DNA of 10,086 nucleotides from Candidatus Mcinerneyibacteriota bacterium (lineage in GTDB: Bacteria > Macinerneyibacteriota > Macinerneyibacteria > Macinerneyibacteriales > DSCS01), in assembly GCA_016937175.1 (NCBI GenBank), contig JAFGWL010000024.1:1-10086 (forward strand), read 5' to 3'. The notes under the pieces were generated by a model that had not been told where the DNA came from, made no database searches, and was given only the letters and a program-made list of their open reading frames with translations. Positions 2,396-9,926 of this stretch are shown piece after piece. Within the stretch, counting starts at the first letter, position 1; each line of letters starts with the position of its first letter. Position numbers and translations under genes: made by a program.

Positions 2396-2815
2396 TTAAT
2401 AGGCCAGGGCATAGGCCTGTTCTTCCAGCTTGTCCTTTTCGATCTGAAGCTGCAGGGGTTTCCCAGATTTCAGCAGAATGGTTCTGTCCACCGCCTTTTT
2501 CCCCATATTTTCGTCCCGGATCTCAGACTGTGATGAAATATCCTCCACCTTCTGGTAGAGATCCGCTACACCGCTTTCATCCAGGCCCATGGGGGCTGTA
2601 AACGCCTTGACCGTGACCGGCTGTTCGGGAACGGGGCCCGGCATGGCGACAGTCAGCAGGAGAAGAAGAACGGCCGCGGCGGCAAAGGAACTTCCGGCCA
2701 CGTAACGGATCCGTCTTTTCCTGGCCAGAGCCTTCTCTTCAAGCAGAAGAGCCTGGAGAAGGTTCTCTTTAAAAATAGGTGGCGGTGTGATAAAATCTTT
2801 CATTCTCTTCTTCAT
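2396..2815 (-). CDS. Single-pass membrane protein, candidate anti-sigma factor
   Basis: This 139-aa protein has a basic cytoplasmic N-terminus (1-37, with RKRRIR just before the membrane), one hydrophobic segment at about 38-58 (AAAAVLLLLLTVA), and an external domain of about 80 residues. The start ATG overlaps the sigma-factor stop in an ATGA, with a strong GAGGAGG site about 5 nt upstream, so the two are translationally coupled. That placement and topology fit an anti-sigma factor holding the ECF sigma at the membrane. However, there is no HxxxCxxC zinc motif, no cysteine or histidine at all, and the cytoplasmic part is short. I therefore infer the role from context; it could instead be an unrelated envelope protein. 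The external segment 70-139 is rich in charged residues and matches nothing I know. Confidence 0.7.
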   Translation of the reverse strand: MKKRMKDFITPPPIFKENLLQALLLEEKALARKRRIRYVAGSSFAAAAVLLLLLTVAMPGPVPEQPVTVKAFTAPMGLDESGVADLYQKVEDISSQSEIRDENMGKKAVDRTILLKSGKPLQLQIEKDKLEEQAYALAY

Positions 2816-3336
2816 CTTTCCTCCTCAAATATGACATCTTTACGAATTTTTTTCAATGCCCGGTGCACTTTGGAGCGCAAGGTCGAAGCATTTTCCTTCT
2901 TGATCTCCGCGAGCTCCCGATAGGTCAAATCGTCAAAGTAGATCCCGATCAGCAGATCTCTCTCATCGTCATCCAGCTTGTCGTTCATCACAGCCATGAC
3001 TTTATTCAGAGTATCCTCTGCTTCAAGGGCCTCCTGCAATTCGTGGGCTTCCTGGAGGACTTCATCGGACTTCAGCAGAAAGTCGTGCTTTTCAACCAGG
3101 GAGAGAGGCTTCTTCTGCCGGTACCAATTGATGATCTCATTATTGGCGATGGTGAAGATCCACGTCCCCAGGGCCGCTTTGTCCCGGTTATACGTATGCA
3201 GGTTTTTCAACACTTTCATAAAAACACCTGCCGTAATGTCCTCTGCCCGTTCAACATTCATTACACGCCTTAACACGTAAGAATATACCCTCTCAAAGTA
3301 GTATTTATAAATCTCTTCAATGTTAAGCGCCTGCAC
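2812..3336 (-). CDS. ECF-family RNA polymerase sigma factor
   Basis: This 174-aa protein has the two-domain ECF layout. Region 2 lies at about residues 8-75: YYFERVYSYVLRRV, then ERAEDITAGVFMKVLKNL, then the region 2.4-like GTWIFTIANNEIINWYRQKK, which reads the -10 element. Region 4 lies at about 118-167: DDDERDLLIGIYFDDLTYRE followed by the helix-turn-helix STLRSKVHRALKKIRK, which reads the -35. No region 3 or C-terminal extension is present. The start is GTG at 3334-3336, only 6 nt after the radical SAM stop. I see no good ribosome site, so translation probably depends on coupling, and expression may be low. It is followed by the membrane protein with an ATGA overlap. It probably directs an envelope-related regulon; the target promoters are not evident in the window. 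Confidence 0.93.
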   Translation of the reverse strand: MQALNIEEIYKYYFERVYSYVLRRVMNVERAEDITAGVFMKVLKNLHTYNRDKAALGTWIFTIANNEIINWYRQKKPLSLVEKHDFLLKSDEVLQEAHELQEALEAEDTLNKVMAVMNDKLDDDERDLLIGIYFDDLTYRELAEIKKENASTLRSKVHRALKKIRKDVIFEEER

Positions 3337-4383: not shown

Positions 4384-4935
4384 TTAATTATTTACTACAG
4401 ATTTTATATAATCGCGCCATAAAAGAGTATAATCAATACTATAAAAGGGCTGATCAGGAAAGTCCACTGATAAGACCTGCCGACTGTGTCGGTCATAAAC
4501 AACAAGCGCCTGAGAGAATTGATATCCCTTCCATTTGAGAATATTGGGTTCATATGCAACTATATTACTATTCGCTGAAGTCTTTTCACCGCATTGGATC
4601 TCAAAATAATCAATATAATCTCCTCTGCGGTTTATCTCCTGAGCAAACTCTGTGATACTTTCCCTGCATGCCGGACAAGTCAAGCCAAAAGTTATATAGA
4701 TAAAAACATAACGAGGCTTTCCCGGCCCGGCTTTCAAAAAGAGATCTAGTTCTTCTATATCCCATTCCTGTTTATGGAAGATGTCGCTAAGCTTAACAGA
4801 AAGCTCCTGCATAGCCATCTCTTTATGTACCAACTTTTCCACGATACTCAATTGATTCGCAAAGACAAATGCAGCCAATGCTGTCAAAACAAAAAGAACA
4901 GAGAAAAGAATGGGGACTATTTTTTTAAACATCAT
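4384..4935 (-). CDS. Membrane-anchored or secreted thioredoxin-like protein with CPAC
   Basis: This 183-aa protein has an N-terminal hydrophobic segment at about residues 5-26 (ending VFAN), which may be an uncleaved anchor or a signal peptide. A thioredoxin-like region follows: beta strand RYVFIYITFG leading into Cys87-Pro-Ala-Cys90 and the helix RESITEF. This matches the TlpA/redoxin group of extracytoplasmic disulfide enzymes. Cys115 is a third cysteine. The cis-proline that normally faces the active site is not evident: the expected place reads FSQALVVYD. The family assignment is good, but the chemistry may be atypical. Its start (ATGATG at 4930-4935) overlaps the end of the propeller lipoprotein gene by up to 11 nt and lacks a clear ribosome site, so it is probably translationally coupled. 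A role in making or reducing disulfides in the neighbouring cysteine-containing peptides is plausible but inferred. Confidence 0.8.
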   Translation of the reverse strand: MMFKKIVPILFSVLFVLTALAAFVFANQLSIVEKLVHKEMAMQELSVKLSDIFHKQEWDIEELDLFLKAGPGKPRYVFIYITFGLTCPACRESITEFAQEINRRGDYIDYFEIQCGEKTSANSNIVAYEPNILKWKGYQFSQALVVYDRHSRQVLSVDFPDQPFYSIDYTLLWRDYIKSVVNN

Positions 4936-5965
4936 ACTCGAAGATCCGAAGAATCAGCTTATCCTCTTTGCCCCTATCCACGTAGATCAACTCTCCCCGT
5001 GGAATCGTCGTCCTCAAGCTTGTCTTAAGCCAGGGAAACCGGTCTGTGTCCAGCCTATCGTCGAGTTTCTTAAGAATTCTCCCATTCCCATCAACAATTA
5101 TTTTTCCTTGTCCAAAGACATCCATGAAAAAGGTCTCATTTTCACGGTCGGGGATCATATTCAAAATAAGATCTTCAAAGGGAAGATCGATTCTCCCGAT
5201 CAGGTTCCCGTCACAATCACTGACCAGGATCTTTCCGCCTCCTTCGACCTTCCAGCTGTCTCGCTTGATCTGTTTCATGCTTTTATGGTAAAGCTCCCCG
5301 CTCATAAAGATCTTGTCTCCGCTGATGACGAAAACTTCAAACATGGCAAAGGAATTGTGTTTTCGCGGAAGACACTTTTTGATAGGATGGAGGGCTTTAT
5401 CCAAAATGATAATTCGATAAGTGTCTATTGTTCCACCGCTTTGATTAAAAAGGTAGATCCGTCCTTCATTTTTCCACGCATAATGGATAGTGCTTGAAGA
5501 CCAGACTGCTGTATCAATCGTGTCTTCAAAGGAAAATCCGTCAGGACTCAAGTAGAAAAGAGAAGCTCTTGAAAGTACCATATCAAAAAGAAGAGCTGTG
5601 GAATCATCGATAAATACAGCAGAATTGGCACTGAGTGCTTCTCCCGGGCCTTTGCCGTAGGGAGCCAGCTCTCCCAGGAAACGCCCACTCTCTCGATGCC
5701 AGGCGTAAGCACGCATATTGCTTGTTGCGATGATCCCTATGATATATTTTTCCCCTATTATAAAGTCTCGAAAAGGCCAAAGCCCATAGTTTAGATCCAG
5801 CTCTATGGTCTCTGTTAACTTCAAGAGATCAAAAAAGGAGTCAGCAGATTGTATCCGTTCCCTTTTTTCCTGAGATAACGGCCGAGATTCATAATCAGGG
5901 ATCATTTTAGAACAACCTGATAAGATAATAATGAAAAACAAAAATGTTAACTTTAATTTTAGCAT
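4925..5965 (-). CDS. Six-bladed beta-propeller lipoprotein, copy A
   Basis: Read from ATG at 5963-5965 this is 346 aa, the same length as copy B, and it begins with a clean lipoprotein signal (MLKLKLTFLFFIIILSGC; lipid-attachment Cys18). A GTG nine codons upstream is in frame but would overlap the peptide gene. The mature part has repeated beta-strand units such as GRFLGELAPYGKGPGEA, STALLFDM, IYLFNQSGGTIDTYRIIILD, GKILVSDCDGNLIGRIDLP and the closing LILRIFEYDV. Together these resemble the 6-bladed beta-propeller (NHL/TolB-like) lipoproteins common in Bacteroidota, which are thought to bind ligands or partners at the envelope. I see no enzymatic residues. The gene follows peptide A after an 8-nt gap and overlaps the redoxin start. 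No strong ribosome site is visible, so coupling to peptide A is likely. Confidence 0.82.
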   Translation of the reverse strand: MLKLKLTFLFFIIILSGCSKMIPDYESRPLSQEKRERIQSADSFFDLLKLTETIELDLNYGLWPFRDFIIGEKYIIGIIATSNMRAYAWHRESGRFLGELAPYGKGPGEALSANSAVFIDDSTALLFDMVLSRASLFYLSPDGFSFEDTIDTAVWSSSTIHYAWKNEGRIYLFNQSGGTIDTYRIIILDKALHPIKKCLPRKHNSFAMFEVFVISGDKIFMSGELYHKSMKQIKRDSWKVEGGGKILVSDCDGNLIGRIDLPFEDLILNMIPDRENETFFMDVFGQGKIIVDGNGRILKKLDDRLDTDRFPWLKTSLRTTIPRGELIYVDRGKEDKLILRIFEYDV

Positions 5966-5973
5966 AATAGCAT

Positions 5974-6276
5974 TTAGTTCATTCGAATGCACTTGGGCTC
6001 AACAGAACATTCAGACATCCCTTCATCCACTGCATAGCAAACTTGCATTTCCCCTTCCCACGACTCATAGCTCCCATATACTTCTTGAAATGAACAAGGC
6101 ATCCATCCTAACATATATTCCTTATCGAACATGTCTTCAACGATATCAATTGTCCCCCCAATAAAAACAGCTTTCAAAACTTCCTTACAAAACATCCACA
6201 CCAAAGGAACAGGGCTTGATAAAGAAACTCCCGTCAGCATACAGACCAATAAAACAATCGAAACAACCTTTTTCAT
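5974..6276 (-). CDS. Small secreted cysteine-containing protein, copy A
   Basis: This 100-aa protein starts at ATG 6274-6276, preceded by AAGGAGGT (6281-6288). The open frame continues upstream through the promoter, but only this start has a ribosome site and matches copy B. Residues 1-20 are a signal peptide (MKKVVSIVLLVCMLTG core). The mature protein begins SSPVPLVWMF and contains GGTIDIVEDMFDKEY, then a variable stretch (55-80), then the tail EGMSECSV with Cys90 and Cys96. Cysteines at 61, 80, 90 and 96 line up with those of copy B and could form two disulfides; Cys30 is unique to this copy. No family is recognised. It might be an exported signal, a toxin-like peptide or the ligand of the adjacent propeller lipoprotein; none of these is shown. 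Confidence 0.75.
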   Translation of the reverse strand: MKKVVSIVLLVCMLTGVSLSSPVPLVWMFCKEVLKAVFIGGTIDIVEDMFDKEYMLGWMPCSFQEVYGSYESWEGEMQVCYAVDEGMSECSVEPKCIRMN

Positions 6277-6304
6277 ATCGACCTCCTTCACAAGAATTTC
6301 AATC

Positions 6305-6329
6305 ATTATATATATATATATAATGTCAA
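6305..6329 (-). promoter_or_regulatory. Promoter of cassette A with TA-repeat spacer
   Basis: A perfect TTGACA (6324-6329) lies 9 nt after the stop codon of propeller copy B. TATAAT (6305-6310) lies only 13 nt from it, the gap being filled by alternating TA. Thirteen is too short for good sigma-70 promoters; AATGAT (6302-6307), with a 16-nt spacer, is an alternative -10. The TATAAT is 28 nt from the peptide start, about the same as the -10 of cassette B (26 nt), which supports it as the ancestral -10 box. Confidence 0.5.
6307..6322. repeat. (TA)8 dinucleotide run in the cassette A promoter
   Basis: Eight uninterrupted TA units lie between and partly within the -35 and -10 boxes. A change of two units would set the spacer at 17 nt, so replication slippage here could alter promoter strength. 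Confidence 0.7.
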
Positions 6330-6337
6330 TAACTTTT

Positions 6338-7378
6338 TTAAATATCATACTCAAAAATCCGAAGGATCAGCTTTCCTTCTTTGCCCCTGTCCACGTAGAT
6401 CTTCTTCCCCCGTCTAACACTTGTCTGCAGACTTGTTTTTAGCCAGGGGTATTTTTCTGAAGGCCATCCTTCATCAAACATTTTAAGGATCTCCCCAGCA
6501 GTATCCATTATATATGCATTTTTCCCGAGTTGCTGAATATAAAAGGTTTCGTTTTTTGAATCAGGGATTATATCCACGAGAAGCTCTTCAAATGGAAGTT
6601 CTATTCTTCCGACAAGATCACCCTCTAAATCACTAACTAACAATTTCCCTCTGCCCTCAACCTGCCAAAGTTCTTCTTTAATGTCTTTAACATTTTTATG
6701 ATATAGCTCGTCGGTCATAAAAATCCTGTCTCCACTGATGACGTAAGATTCAAACATGGCAAAAGAATTGTGTTTCCGTGGAAGACACTTTTTGATAGGA
6801 TCAAGGGCTTTATCCAAAATGATAATGCGATAAGTATCTATTGTTCCACCGCTTTGATTAAAAAGGTAGATCCATCCTTCATTTTTCCATGCATAATGAA
6901 TGGTACCTGAAGACCAGATTGCTGTATCGATCACATCGTCGAAAAAAAAACCATCAGGAGATAAACGGAAAATTGTCGCTCTTGAAAGCCCCATGTCAAA
7001 AAGAAGAGCTGTGGAATCATCAATAAACACAGCTGAACTAGTGTTAATTGCTTCTCCCGGGCCTTTACCATAGGGCGTCATTTCTCCCAGGAAACGCCCA
7101 CTTGACCGGTGCCATGCGTAAGCCCGCATATTGCCTGCCCGGATAATACCTATAATATATTTATCTCCGACAATGATATCGTAAAAAGGCCACAGCTTGT
7201 AATCAAGATTCAATTCGATATACTCCGATAAAACGAATAGATCTGATGAAAATTCTGCAGACTCTATCTTTTCTCTCTTATCCTGTGGGACTTGAGTTGC
7301 GTTATAAAGAGAAATTTCCCCCGAACATCCTGATAATATGAACACTATGAAAATATATATTTTTAACCGTGCAATCAT
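6338..7378 (-). CDS. Six-bladed beta-propeller lipoprotein, copy B
   Basis: This 346-aa paralogue of copy A starts at ATG 7376-7378, with AAGGGG 6 nt upstream. A TTG eleven codons earlier is in frame but lacks a ribosome site and would overlap the peptide gene. The signal peptide ends FILSGC, giving a lipid-modified Cys. Similarity to copy A runs the whole length. It is almost complete in the middle (about residues 110-215, including IDDSTALLFDM, TIHYAWKNEG, YLFNQSGGTIDTYRIIIL and PRKHNSFAMFE) and weaker in the N-terminal 50 residues and the last blades (260-315). As with copy A, the fold suggests an envelope binding protein rather than an enzyme. The gene follows peptide B after 11 nt. Unlike copy A it is not followed by a redoxin gene but by the promoter of cassette A. 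Confidence 0.82.
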   Translation of the reverse strand: MIARLKIYIFIVFILSGCSGEISLYNATQVPQDKREKIESAEFSSDLFVLSEYIELNLDYKLWPFYDIIVGDKYIIGIIRAGNMRAYAWHRSSGRFLGEMTPYGKGPGEAINTSSAVFIDDSTALLFDMGLSRATIFRLSPDGFFFDDVIDTAIWSSGTIHYAWKNEGWIYLFNQSGGTIDTYRIIILDKALDPIKKCLPRKHNSFAMFESYVISGDRIFMTDELYHKNVKDIKEELWQVEGRGKLLVSDLEGDLVGRIELPFEELLVDIIPDSKNETFYIQQLGKNAYIMDTAGEILKMFDEGWPSEKYPWLKTSLQTSVRRGKKIYVDRGKEGKLILRIFEYDI

Positions 7379-7389
7379 TTGATGCCCCT

Positions 7390-7695
7390 TTAACTCCCTG
7401 TTGGTATACAATCGCCTAGTACACTACATTCTGACATCCCTTTCTCTTCAACCTCCATGCACCTTGGTGCTATCCCTCTAACAGTTGTACCACTAGGGTA
7501 TAATGTTACCTCACAAGGATCAAAAACTATCGTGTATTCCTTATCAAACATATCTCCGATAATATCAACAGTTCCTCCGACAAATACGGTTTTCAGAACT
7601 TCTTTGAGAAACATCCACAACAAAGGAACAGGGTTTGAAAAAGTAGCTCCCGTCAGCATACAGACCAATAAAACAATCGAAACAACCTTTTTCAT
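7390..7695 (-). CDS. Small secreted cysteine-containing protein, copy B
   Basis: This 101-aa paralogue of copy A starts at ATG 7693-7695, with AGGAGGT at 7700-7706 and the same TCGAT spacer before the ATG. Residues 1-16 are identical to copy A, and the mature N-terminus NPVPLLWMFLKEVLK through DMFDKEY (to residue 54) differs only by a few changes. Residues 55-80 are unrelated, then KGMSECSV with Cys90 and Cys96 returns. Cysteines 61, 79, 90 and 96 correspond to those of copy A with a one-residue shift at the second. The conserved-variable-conserved pattern is unusual for a housekeeping protein. The family and function are unknown. It is the first gene after a strong promoter, so it is probably the most highly expressed product of the island. 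Confidence 0.78.
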   Translation of the reverse strand: MKKVVSIVLLVCMLTGATFSNPVPLLWMFLKEVLKTVFVGGTVDIIGDMFDKEYTIVFDPCEVTLYPSGTTVRGIAPRCMEVEEKGMSECSVLGDCIPTGS

Positions 7696-7721
7696 ATCGA
7701 CCTCCTAATTAATACCACTAA

Positions 7722-7750
7722 TTTATATATATATAAATATTAATTGTCAA
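7722..7750 (-). promoter_or_regulatory. Strong promoter of cassette B
   Basis: A perfect TTGACA (7745-7750), a 17-nt A/T-only spacer and TATAAA (7722-7727) form a near-ideal sigma-70-type promoter. The peptide B start is 26 nt further on, after a strong AGGAGGT. The spacer and -10 include a TA run. The stretch 7751-7861 between this promoter and the ATP-grasp stop codon holds no gene that I can support. Confidence 0.72.
7724..7735. repeat. (TA)6 dinucleotide run in the cassette B promoter
   Basis: Six uninterrupted TA units overlap the -10 box and the spacer of the cassette B promoter. This is the counterpart of the eight-unit run in cassette A. Confidence 0.65.
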
Positions 7751-7861: not shown

Positions 7862-8914
7862 TTAAACATCCCTGATAATCCCGTAAGCCTGGTAAAACCT
7901 CCTGATCCGGGTGTCAAGGAGAAAGGGCTTGTGCACCTGGAGGAGGTCCACGCCCGTGTAGCTGTTGCCTTCGATAACGCTGAAGCCCTCTTCTCCCAGG
8001 ACGATGTCCCAGCCCACATAGGGCAGGTAGGGATGAGCTTCCGCTGTTTTGAAGATGATGGAGACCATGGCCTCCCAGTCCGGGATCTTCCGACCGGTAA
8101 AGCGTTCTTTTGTGTCCGGATGGTGCTGCATCCACGTGAGCCCTTTCCCCCTGGGATGGACCACCCCTTCACCCAACTCTCCCGTCTCGGGATCCACATG
8201 GACACTGAGTCCGCCAAGCTCACAGTTATCCGTGGGCTCTGAAGATTTCGTCCCGATTCGCTGAACCGTCGAGGGGATGAAGGCTTTCCCTGTGTCGGGA
8301 TCCAGCATGGTCACGATCCTCAATGTGTTGATCGTACGGGGATAAAGAGACGATGCAAAAGCACCCTGGGCGATGAAGTCTGTGGCCAGGTAAGGGGACG
8401 TCTCATGGAGGATTTTCCCCAGGAGAGGGCGGGGATCCCTCTTCTCTCCGTTGACAGTGAACGTGTCCCCCTCGCGTTTTAAAAAAATGATCCCGTGCCC
8501 GCCTCCGCCTCTCAGGGGTTTCAGCACGAGTCCGTTGACCTCTTTCACATAATCCAGAAGAGCAGAGAGGGAATCCACCTGCCGGTGGCTCTCCAGTGGG
8601 AATGTGTGCCCCCTGTCCAAGAGGCAGAGGTTCTGCGGAACGGGGAAACAGCGTCCGAAGACCTTCTCAAAGACGATCTTGTCATCAAGGAAGAGCGCAA
8701 AAGAGCCGTTGATCTTCCTTGTACTGAGCCGCTGCCAGTCGGTAAGAAAAGCATCATATCCGTATTTTTTAAAATCATAGATCACATGGGCTTCGCTGAA
8801 AAACCCTCTGCGGAGAAGAGCCATCCGTTTCAATAAAGGGACATGCTCTTTGAACTGCAGCTCCTTTTTAATAAAGGCACGCAAACGCCTTAAGTTCTGA
8901 AAGCGCTTATCCAT
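7862..8914 (-). CDS. ATP-grasp ligase of the sugar-transfer-associated type
   Basis: This 350-aa protein has an N-terminal helical part (1-60) and then an ATP-grasp fold. Lys132 and the glycine-rich loop (GLVLKPLRGGGGHGI, 128-142) hold ATP phosphates. RTINTLRIVT (193-202) and CELGGLSVHVD (231-241) are hallmarks of the family Pfam calls sugar-transfer-associated ATP-grasp (PF14397). GWDIVL (Asp303) and VIEGNSYTG (Glu315, Asn317) supply the Mg ligands. Members join a carboxylate to an amine or similar nucleophile and often sit in surface-polysaccharide or cell-wall loci; the substrate here is unknown. The ATG has GGAGGA 5 nt upstream and overlaps the stop codon of the preceding ATP-grasp gene by 8 nt, so the two are co-translated. 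Confidence 0.87.
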   Translation of the reverse strand: MDKRFQNLRRLRAFIKKELQFKEHVPLLKRMALLRRGFFSEAHVIYDFKKYGYDAFLTDWQRLSTRKINGSFALFLDDKIVFEKVFGRCFPVPQNLCLLDRGHTFPLESHRQVDSLSALLDYVKEVNGLVLKPLRGGGGHGIIFLKREGDTFTVNGEKRDPRPLLGKILHETSPYLATDFIAQGAFASSLYPRTINTLRIVTMLDPDTGKAFIPSTVQRIGTKSSEPTDNCELGGLSVHVDPETGELGEGVVHPRGKGLTWMQHHPDTKERFTGRKIPDWEAMVSIIFKTAEAHPYLPYVGWDIVLGEEGFSVIEGNSYTGVDLLQVHKPFLLDTRIRRFYQAYGIIRDV

Positions 8915-9926
8915 TCTCTTCCTCCAACAGGTTCAAGACATCTTTCACCCGTAACTCACAGCTGTCAAAGCGGTTGAACTCTCCGGGCTCAAAGACCCAA
9001 CTTGTGTTATTATACAGAAAGCGCCCAGGGATCCCATCCACCTTCGTCTGATACGGGTTGATCTTCGAGGCAAAGACAGTATGGAGTTCATTGACCAGGA
9101 ATTCCCCCTCTTCAGTCTCGAAGAAATCTACGTTCATGGAGCGGAAATTTCCCGCATCACACACTCTTTTGAGAAAATCCAGGGGAGCATCTCCCGGGTG
9201 GCCGTAAGCGGCTTTCCCCGACCCGCTGCGAAAGCCCTTTTTATCAGGAAGTTTTTCATGGATGAAGTAGGACTCTCCGATCTTGACTCCCCGCCACTCA
9301 TGCCTTACCCGGACCGCTTCCTGGAAATAGACATTGTTATACTGAATATCGTCAAAGAGGGGATAGGGGATCCCCAGAGGGCCCCGGGCCCATTTGACAA
9401 AGCCTTTGAACCCCAGCCCTGTGCGGGTGAAGAGACGGTCTACAAGACGTCCGGCAGCTCTTCTGTCTTTGATCATACGCACGCCGCCGCCGCCACTTCC
9501 AAGGTTAGCCTTAAAAAAGAGAGGGAACCGTGGGCCATCATTAATGAAAGCCAGAGCTTCTTCCCTGTCATAAAAGACATGTGTGGGGGGATGGGGGATG
9601 TGATGGATCCTCAGCCAATAGAGAAGGACCCGCTTATTCTCATAGAGCATGATCTCCCGGTAGGAGGGGTAGACCATGCGTTTCATCTCCCGTTCGAGGA
9701 AATAGATGCGCTCATCGAACATCTGCTTGTAGACCATCCGTCGGGCTGTGGGACGGCAGAGAAAAGCACTGCACGGACACTCTTCAAGGCGCCGGATCCA
9801 GCCATCAGAGATGATATCGATTATTTTGTAGGGAACATCAAGCGCTTCACAGGCATTGACATAGCTCTCATGAAGCCCATCGGGTTCTTTGAGGATTCCA
9901 AGCATGATTTTGCTATTTTTTCCCAT
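8907..9926 (-). CDS. ATP-grasp protein, RimK-like
   Basis: This 339-aa protein begins with a small alpha/beta N-terminal domain (MLGILKEPDG and the following roughly 75 residues). A linker follows with PSYREIMLYENKR, where the Y/F-x-x-K helix introduces the ATP-grasp fold (HIPHPPTHVFYDREEALAFI). ATP-binding Lys139 and a glycine-rich loop (FFKANLGSGGGGVRM, 137-151) are clear; YFQEAV and NVDFFETEEGEFLVNELHT give the adenine-facing strand and the Mg ligands. It differs from the following ATP-grasp gene in sequence and domain order, so the two are not a recent duplication. It probably ligates an amino acid or similar group to a cytoplasmic carboxylate; the substrate is unknown. The ATG has AGAGGAG about 5 nt upstream and overlaps the preceding gene by 14 nt. 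Confidence 0.85.
   Translation of the reverse strand: MGKNSKIMLGILKEPDGLHESYVNACEALDVPYKIIDIISDGWIRRLEECPCSAFLCRPTARRMVYKQMFDERIYFLEREMKRMVYPSYREIMLYENKRVLLYWLRIHHIPHPPTHVFYDREEALAFINDGPRFPLFFKANLGSGGGGVRMIKDRRAAGRLVDRLFTRTGLGFKGFVKWARGPLGIPYPLFDDIQYNNVYFQEAVRVRHEWRGVKIGESYFIHEKLPDKKGFRSGSGKAAYGHPGDAPLDFLKRVCDAGNFRSMNVDFFETEEGEFLVNELHTVFASKINPYQTKVDGIPGRFLYNNTSWVFEPGEFNRFDSCELRVKDVLNLLEEENG

Follow-up and report, generated by a model that had tools for sequence, protein, structure and literature searches.

Gene content of the locus

The window analysed here, 10,086 nucleotides long, is the whole of contig C36 of a 1.88-Mb genome (G000) of a Candidatus Mcinerneyibacteriota bacterium, and it carries a set of genes for two small exported peptides, two propeller lipoproteins and a redoxin. 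The five genes lie on the minus strand in the order peptide 1 (7695-7390, 101 amino acids), propeller lipoprotein 1 (7378-6338, 346 amino acids from the ATG), peptide 2 (6276-5974, 100 amino acids), propeller lipoprotein 2 (5965-4925, likewise 346 amino acids from the ATG) and the redoxin, a membrane-anchored thioredoxin-fold protein (4935-4384, 183 amino acids). They are tightly packed. In both units, 8-11 nt separate the stop codon of the peptide from the ATG of its own propeller, and the ATG of the redoxin overlaps the stop codon of propeller 2. A preliminary description of the window had recorded two tandem peptide-propeller units followed by an overlapping redoxin with a CPAC motif, and all of these genes were confirmed. 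Because the same gene set occurs in unrelated bacteria, it probably represents an undescribed system in which a surface protein works alongside a peptide stitched by disulfides; a search of curated families and of the accessible literature found no description of this peptide-propeller-redoxin set.

The island had been placed at 4384-7750. Its gene content stands as described, but the island proper ends near 7740, at the start of the AT-rich leader of peptide 1. This leader (7696-7750, minus strand) contains TTGACA, TATAAA and the Shine-Dalgarno sequence AGGAGG upstream of the open reading frame (ORF); it was read directly and is unlisted by the promoter scan. The repeated leader of peptide 2 (6277-6337, minus strand) contains TTGACA, a TATATATA run and the Shine-Dalgarno sequence GGAGG, with a promoter-like match at 6329-6302, and the two leaders are 72-83% identical.

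Peptide 1 consists of a Sec signal peptide, a helical segment and a C-terminal domain with four cysteines. Peptide 2 has the same signal peptide, likewise a helical middle and a diverged Cys domain, and the two peptides are 60% identical. The preliminary description spoke of secreted proteins of ~100 amino acids with four conserved mature cysteines. Four cysteines are indeed common to both C-terminal domains, but peptide 2 has five mature cysteines, the extra one being located in the middle segment. Neither peptide gave a meaningful match in Pfam or NCBIfam, in agreement with the earlier view that the lipoproteins are paired here with a different peptide family. The peptide fold model (mean predicted local distance difference test score, pLDDT, 60) yielded nothing usable, with a best match in the PDB at an E-value of 0.14.

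In Bacteroidota, small exported peptides of the NVEALA type often lie beside six-bladed propeller lipoproteins. The window resembles these systems in having a small exported peptide next to a propeller lipoprotein, and differs from them in the peptide family and in the inclusion of a thioredoxin-fold protein in the unit. We rejected an NVEALA identity of the window peptides: PF14055 was unmatched in the window genome at E ≤ 0.001, and the motif is absent. PF14055 was also unmatched throughout the 386 genomes of our sample (that of the window and 385 others), which is without Bacteroidota.

The Cys domain has the character of a cassette that can be exchanged, whereas the copies have kept a uniform signal peptide and leader. 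When the two window copies are compared, zero synonymous differences are seen over 20 codons of the signal segment, and the synonymous sites of the Cys domain have reached saturation. Peptide 1 is 75% identical to its orthologue in a sister species of the same genus (G001). In the Cys domain (7393-7542, minus strand, codons 52-100), the DNA identity between these two orthologues is as high as 95-97%, and the proportions of synonymous and nonsynonymous differences (pS and pN) are 0.19 and 0.03, respectively. The flanking DNA is 48-80% identical, with 48% in the adjoining middle segment, and the flanking genes show pS values of 0.49-0.59 (p between about 3e-4 and 4e-3 in a binomial test, according to the rate that is expected). 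The high identity of the Cys domain amid diverged flanks, together with the uniform leaders, suggests that recombination swaps Cys domains and homogenizes leaders, and positions 7393-7542 are, to judge from these alignments, probably a recombination cassette inside a much more diverged gene. A mid-propeller patch (about 6913-6750) is 90-95% identical between the window copies.

Propellers 1 and 2 both contain the lipobox LSGC and the sequence GKGPGE. Propeller 2 passes the cut-off of PF15869 (31.0 bits versus 29.2; E 2.1e-7). Propeller 1 scores below it (19.6 bits; E 6e-4) and is assigned to the PF15869/PF17170 kind because it is 66-67% identical to propeller 2. These six-bladed propellers form a family of unknown function, membership of which is uninformative as to a peptide partner, and we know of no role for lipoproteins of this type. 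The family profile matched, over part of its length and by profile comparison only, solved NHL propellers, with E-values as low as 1.7e-24 for Thin/TRIM71, and 4RAA (3.6e-9). A GxGPGE motif is common to most family members examined. Neither a contig search with propeller 2 for named relatives nor a tblastn search with two propellers against plasmids gave a match, and PF15869 had a single match, below the cut-off, across the 386 genomes.

In the AlphaFold2 model of the redoxin, which is of moderate confidence (mean pLDDT 65), an N-terminal helix (residues 3-54) is followed by a thioredoxin-like domain with CPAC at residues 87-90. Foldseek matched the model to proteins that include the ResA, Etrx and TlpA types (best E 4e-4), and VIA-align placed it among the thioredoxins (Z 8.6, root-mean-square deviation 3.2, 100 residues aligned). 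The Pfam redoxin models did not match the protein. As modelled, the redoxin has the features of a TlpA/ResA-like protein, namely a thioredoxin fold, a CxxC motif and an N-terminal membrane anchor.

Occurrence of the gene set in related and distant genomes

In our sample, only the sister species G001 shares the genus and only one other genome (G002) the order of the window genome. The orthologous locus of the sister species is divided between two contigs (C31/C45). The first carries an AsnB-like gene, two ATP-grasp genes, the peptide and a propeller truncated by the contig end, and the other carries the remaining part of a propeller and then the redoxin, with downstream genes that match those of the window. 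The Asn-synthase-like gene and the two ATP-grasp genes following it (C31, 11411-15114) possibly serve surface polysaccharide or peptide ligation.

A second locus of the sister species (C25) contains, in order, a 2-Cys peptide, a propeller, a redoxin with CEQC, a propeller, a 4-Cys peptide, a propeller and a redoxin with CNAC, and further a fusion of a thioredoxin with the beginning of a CcdA-like membrane domain. All four cysteines of the 4-Cys peptide have aligned counterparts in the window peptides (hhalign P 0.009; 1-3 of 2000 in a shuffle test), and the propellers and redoxins are only about 19-24% identical to those of the window (propeller ~24%, redoxin ~19%). Judged by these alignments, C25 is a deeply diverged paralogous locus with a homologous peptide. 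In the same genome, contig C59 (1-863) contains the C-terminus of a propeller and then a redoxin remnant (CPSC) broken by a stop codon. Lipid-A type genes are also present in this genome. In the window genome itself, contig C42 carries three peptides of the 2-Cys type ahead of one propeller.

Profile searches detected four window-type peptides in all, the fourth of which was itself part of the final profile query, and each of the four immediately precedes a propeller. The four detected peptides of the 2-Cys type are distributed over two propeller loci and likewise all adjoin propellers, as do two related 2-Cys peptides found at two distant propeller loci in a genome outside the phylum (G217). 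Peptide homologues away from any propeller, which the preliminary description had named as evidence against a pairing, were not encountered among these. Its second such condition, propellers whose nearest relatives always stand alone, did not apply either, since most of the nearest relatives of the window propellers have company. Because the sister species keeps the gene order and the detectable peptide homologues always adjoin propellers, the arrangement is beyond chance. Weak matches to the peptide profile outside the genus (E 0.004-0.007) were treated as noise.

Related propellers also occur in what look like clusters for modified peptides. Contig C5 of the window genome (2380-8583) contains a YcaO gene, an ATP-binding cassette (ABC) exporter, a propeller lipoprotein, a LuxR-type regulator and two short peptides ending in EETGRPVL, and has the appearance of a YcaO peptide cluster that is so far undescribed. 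In the sister species, contig C47 (3051-6977) carries a CefB-like radical S-adenosylmethionine (SAM)/SPASM maturase (NF038107, E 2e-62, below the cut-off), an ABC exporter and a propeller lipoprotein, and the peptide lies beyond the contig end. An AlbA-like radical SAM fragment, an ABC exporter, a propeller and a second ABC transporter are found in G002 (C81, 309-4961). Outside the phylum, G224 (C53, 1-3726) encodes an 80-amino-acid peptide in which roughly every fifth residue is a cysteine, together with a radical-SAM-like protein and two consecutive propellers.

The peptide-propeller-redoxin arrangement itself is repeated in the window, at both loci of the sister species (C31/C45 and C25) and in two genomes from outside the phylum, G081 and G288. 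The kinship of these last two genomes to that of the window, and of G322, G217 and G076, is recorded as "same domain". G081 (C63) has a secreted 4-Cys peptide of 103 amino acids, a propeller and a redoxin with CMSC. The same order is found in G288 (C35), whose secreted 4-Cys peptide and propeller are followed by a redoxin with CTSC. In G322 (C13, 7072-11223), likewise outside the phylum, where MauE replaces the redoxin, a propeller, a 10-Cys secreted peptide and MauE form two tandem units, and a third MauE is encoded elsewhere in the genome. A 4-Cys peptide ahead of a propeller was also found in G076.

By a rule-based count, small secreted ORFs with at least two cysteines lie beside GxGPGE propellers more often than beside other genes, both in the genus (4/16 versus 4/116, p 0.008) and elsewhere (6/59 versus 3/214, p 0.004). 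A scan of 616 kb gave 20 secreted ORFs with at least four cysteines. Six of these fit the framework C-x14-27-C-x5-11-C-x4-5-C, and all six lie just upstream of a propeller; this enrichment is descriptive because the framework was written once examples were known. In an automatic count of genes beside propellers, ABC exporters reached p 0.03 outside the genus and redoxins were not significant. These counts are small because ORFs were truncated by contig ends, many contigs being short, or were missed by length rules.

A proposed three-part envelope system and its alternatives

We consider it slightly better than an even chance (about 0.5) that the locus encodes a three-part envelope system, in which a peptide is exported by Sec, its disulfides are set by the redoxin and it is bound by a cognate propeller, with cell-cell antagonism or recognition as the most likely output. 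Export through Sec is suggested by the signal peptide. Once the peptide has reached the periplasm, the membrane-anchored redoxin would form or correct the disulfides of the Cys domain, as the repeated partnership of the genes suggests, and the cognate propeller lipoprotein may then bind the folded peptide. The Cys domain is the variable and exchangeable business end, and peptides of different types stand in tandem copies within one genome. The output would be a peptide-mediated interaction between cells, either antagonism or recognition, in which the propeller may provide binding or self-protection. The exchange of Cys cassettes and the presence of several peptide types per genome favour such an interaction system. 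The redox step is supported by G322, in which MauE stands in for the redoxin, since methylamine dehydrogenase depends on MauE and MauD for its maturation. The preliminary description had the redoxin handling peptide disulfides, and the independent joining of a redoxin or MauE-type protein to the pair in other phyla is as expected if so. Its interpretation as a whole is partly supported.

Several points weigh against this proposal. Comparison of the window peptides with those of G081 and G288 by hhalign was not significant (P 0.22-0.23), only the framework being common. The single propeller behind three peptides in C42 indicates that strict one-to-one pairing is not the rule, and several propellers of the genus stand without a peptide neighbour. 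In addition, the loci were chosen with the propeller profile, the counts are small and the detection rules were home-made. Binding, disulfides and killing are predictions made from the genes. The weakest step of the model is its output, and the parallels with the mau and qhp systems would allow a fixed complex.

Such a fixed complex is an unlikely alternative, although the strongest of those considered. The peptide would be a permanent small subunit of a propeller-based envelope enzyme or structure, in the manner of MauA and MauB, and would not be released, with the redoxin or MauE serving as an assembly factor. The parts list matches the outline of the mau cluster (MauA, MauB, MauD and MauE): a small Cys-rich secreted subunit, a propeller, a thioredoxin-like protein in place of MauD and, within the G322 copies, MauE. 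According to one report, MauE has been speculated to form disulfides in the beta-subunit of methylamine dehydrogenase, and it also accompanies precursors with at least eight cysteines in candidate peptide clusters of Streptomyces (PMC7794033). Furthermore, the sets of radical SAM, ABC exporter and propeller genes in C47 of the sister species and C81 of G002 recall the operon of quinohemoprotein amine dehydrogenase (qhp), which combines a small cross-linked subunit with the radical SAM protein QhpD (PMC7876137). However, the window propellers are lipoproteins of the PF15869/PF17170/NHL kind, and the window peptides have only four or five mature cysteines and, unlike the qhp subunit, no adjoining radical SAM peptide maturase or peptide exporter. 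MauE (PF07291) was unmatched in the window genome and the sister species, the peptides had no Pfam match at E ≤ 1 to amine-dehydrogenase subunit families, the MauA light chain included, and only one Trp is kept across three closely related peptides. No cytochrome gene was seen nearby, and cassette exchange of the Cys domain would be unusual for an enzyme subunit.

It is less probable still that the locus is a cluster for a ribosomally synthesized and post-translationally modified peptide (RiPP), with the Asn-synthase-like enzyme and the two ATP-grasp enzymes encoded upstream acting on the peptides, and with the propeller as an accessory or immunity lipoprotein. The window contains, as context of uncertain membership, genes for an ATP-grasp protein (PF14397; 7862-8914, minus strand), which has the same position in the sister species and is 85% identical to its counterpart there, and for a RimK-like ATP-grasp protein (8907-9926, minus strand), which is 88% identical to its counterpart; the copy of the latter in the sister species is preceded by the Asn-synthase-like gene. 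Candidates for the dedicated modifying enzyme of a RiPP adjoin the peptide in the sister species, where they are kept directly upstream, and related propellers occur in the YcaO, CefB-like and AlbA-like clusters of the order and in G224. The candidate RiPP clusters of Streptomyces are similar in that a Cys-rich precursor occurs with MauE or MauD-type redox genes, and differ in belonging to another phylum and, as far as the accessible part of that report goes, in that no propeller lipoprotein is named (PMC7794033). Against a RiPP cluster, the leader with promoter-like sequence stands between the ATP-grasp genes and peptide 1, the peptides bear a Sec signal, which does not resemble the cytoplasmic leader of a RiPP, and the gene sets of G081 and G288 have no AsnB-like or ATP-grasp neighbours in the sequence examined. 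A scan for the ATP-grasp genes gave matches only in the sister metagenome-assembled genome and at two distant Halanaerobiales loci, where the relatives sit among glycosyltransferase-like genes without peptides.

Downstream of the island, a sigma factor gene and genes for a transmembrane anti-sigma-like protein and a two-PDZ protein are consecutive (2396-3336 and 1690-2412) and are kept in the sister species. The first two (3336-2396), ~1 kb from the island, could be fed by peptide-receptor signalling, with the peptide as a ligand and the propeller as a sensor. We regard this as quite improbable, since a radical SAM gene intervenes before the sigma factor gene, no regulator lies beside the gene sets of G081 or G288 in the sequence examined, and the propeller has no transmembrane signalling domain. 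The least probable explanation, a chance neighbourhood of a small secreted family and a common propeller family that were duplicated together, fits the many solitary propellers of the family but is already disfavoured by the independent repetition of the gene set, also outside the phylum, and by the position of all four homologues beside propellers.

Implications for the propeller and peptide families

Returning to the three-part envelope system, we suggest more tentatively that it belongs to an undescribed, cross-phylum class of exported disulfide peptides with exchangeable Cys domains, which a dedicated thioredoxin-fold protein or MauE would mature and a propeller lipoprotein would receive, and that the wider group of GxGPGE propellers serves exported peptides, including YcaO and radical-SAM products. 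The propellers in the YcaO and radical-SAM clusters of the order and in G224 make it plausible that these lipoproteins have a general role as envelope partners of exported peptides. The peptide-propeller-redoxin set offers a testable role for the PF15869/PF17170-type propellers, that of receiving or carrying exported peptides. It also draws attention to a peptide family that current annotation overlooks, since its genes are short and variable and no profile library covers them.

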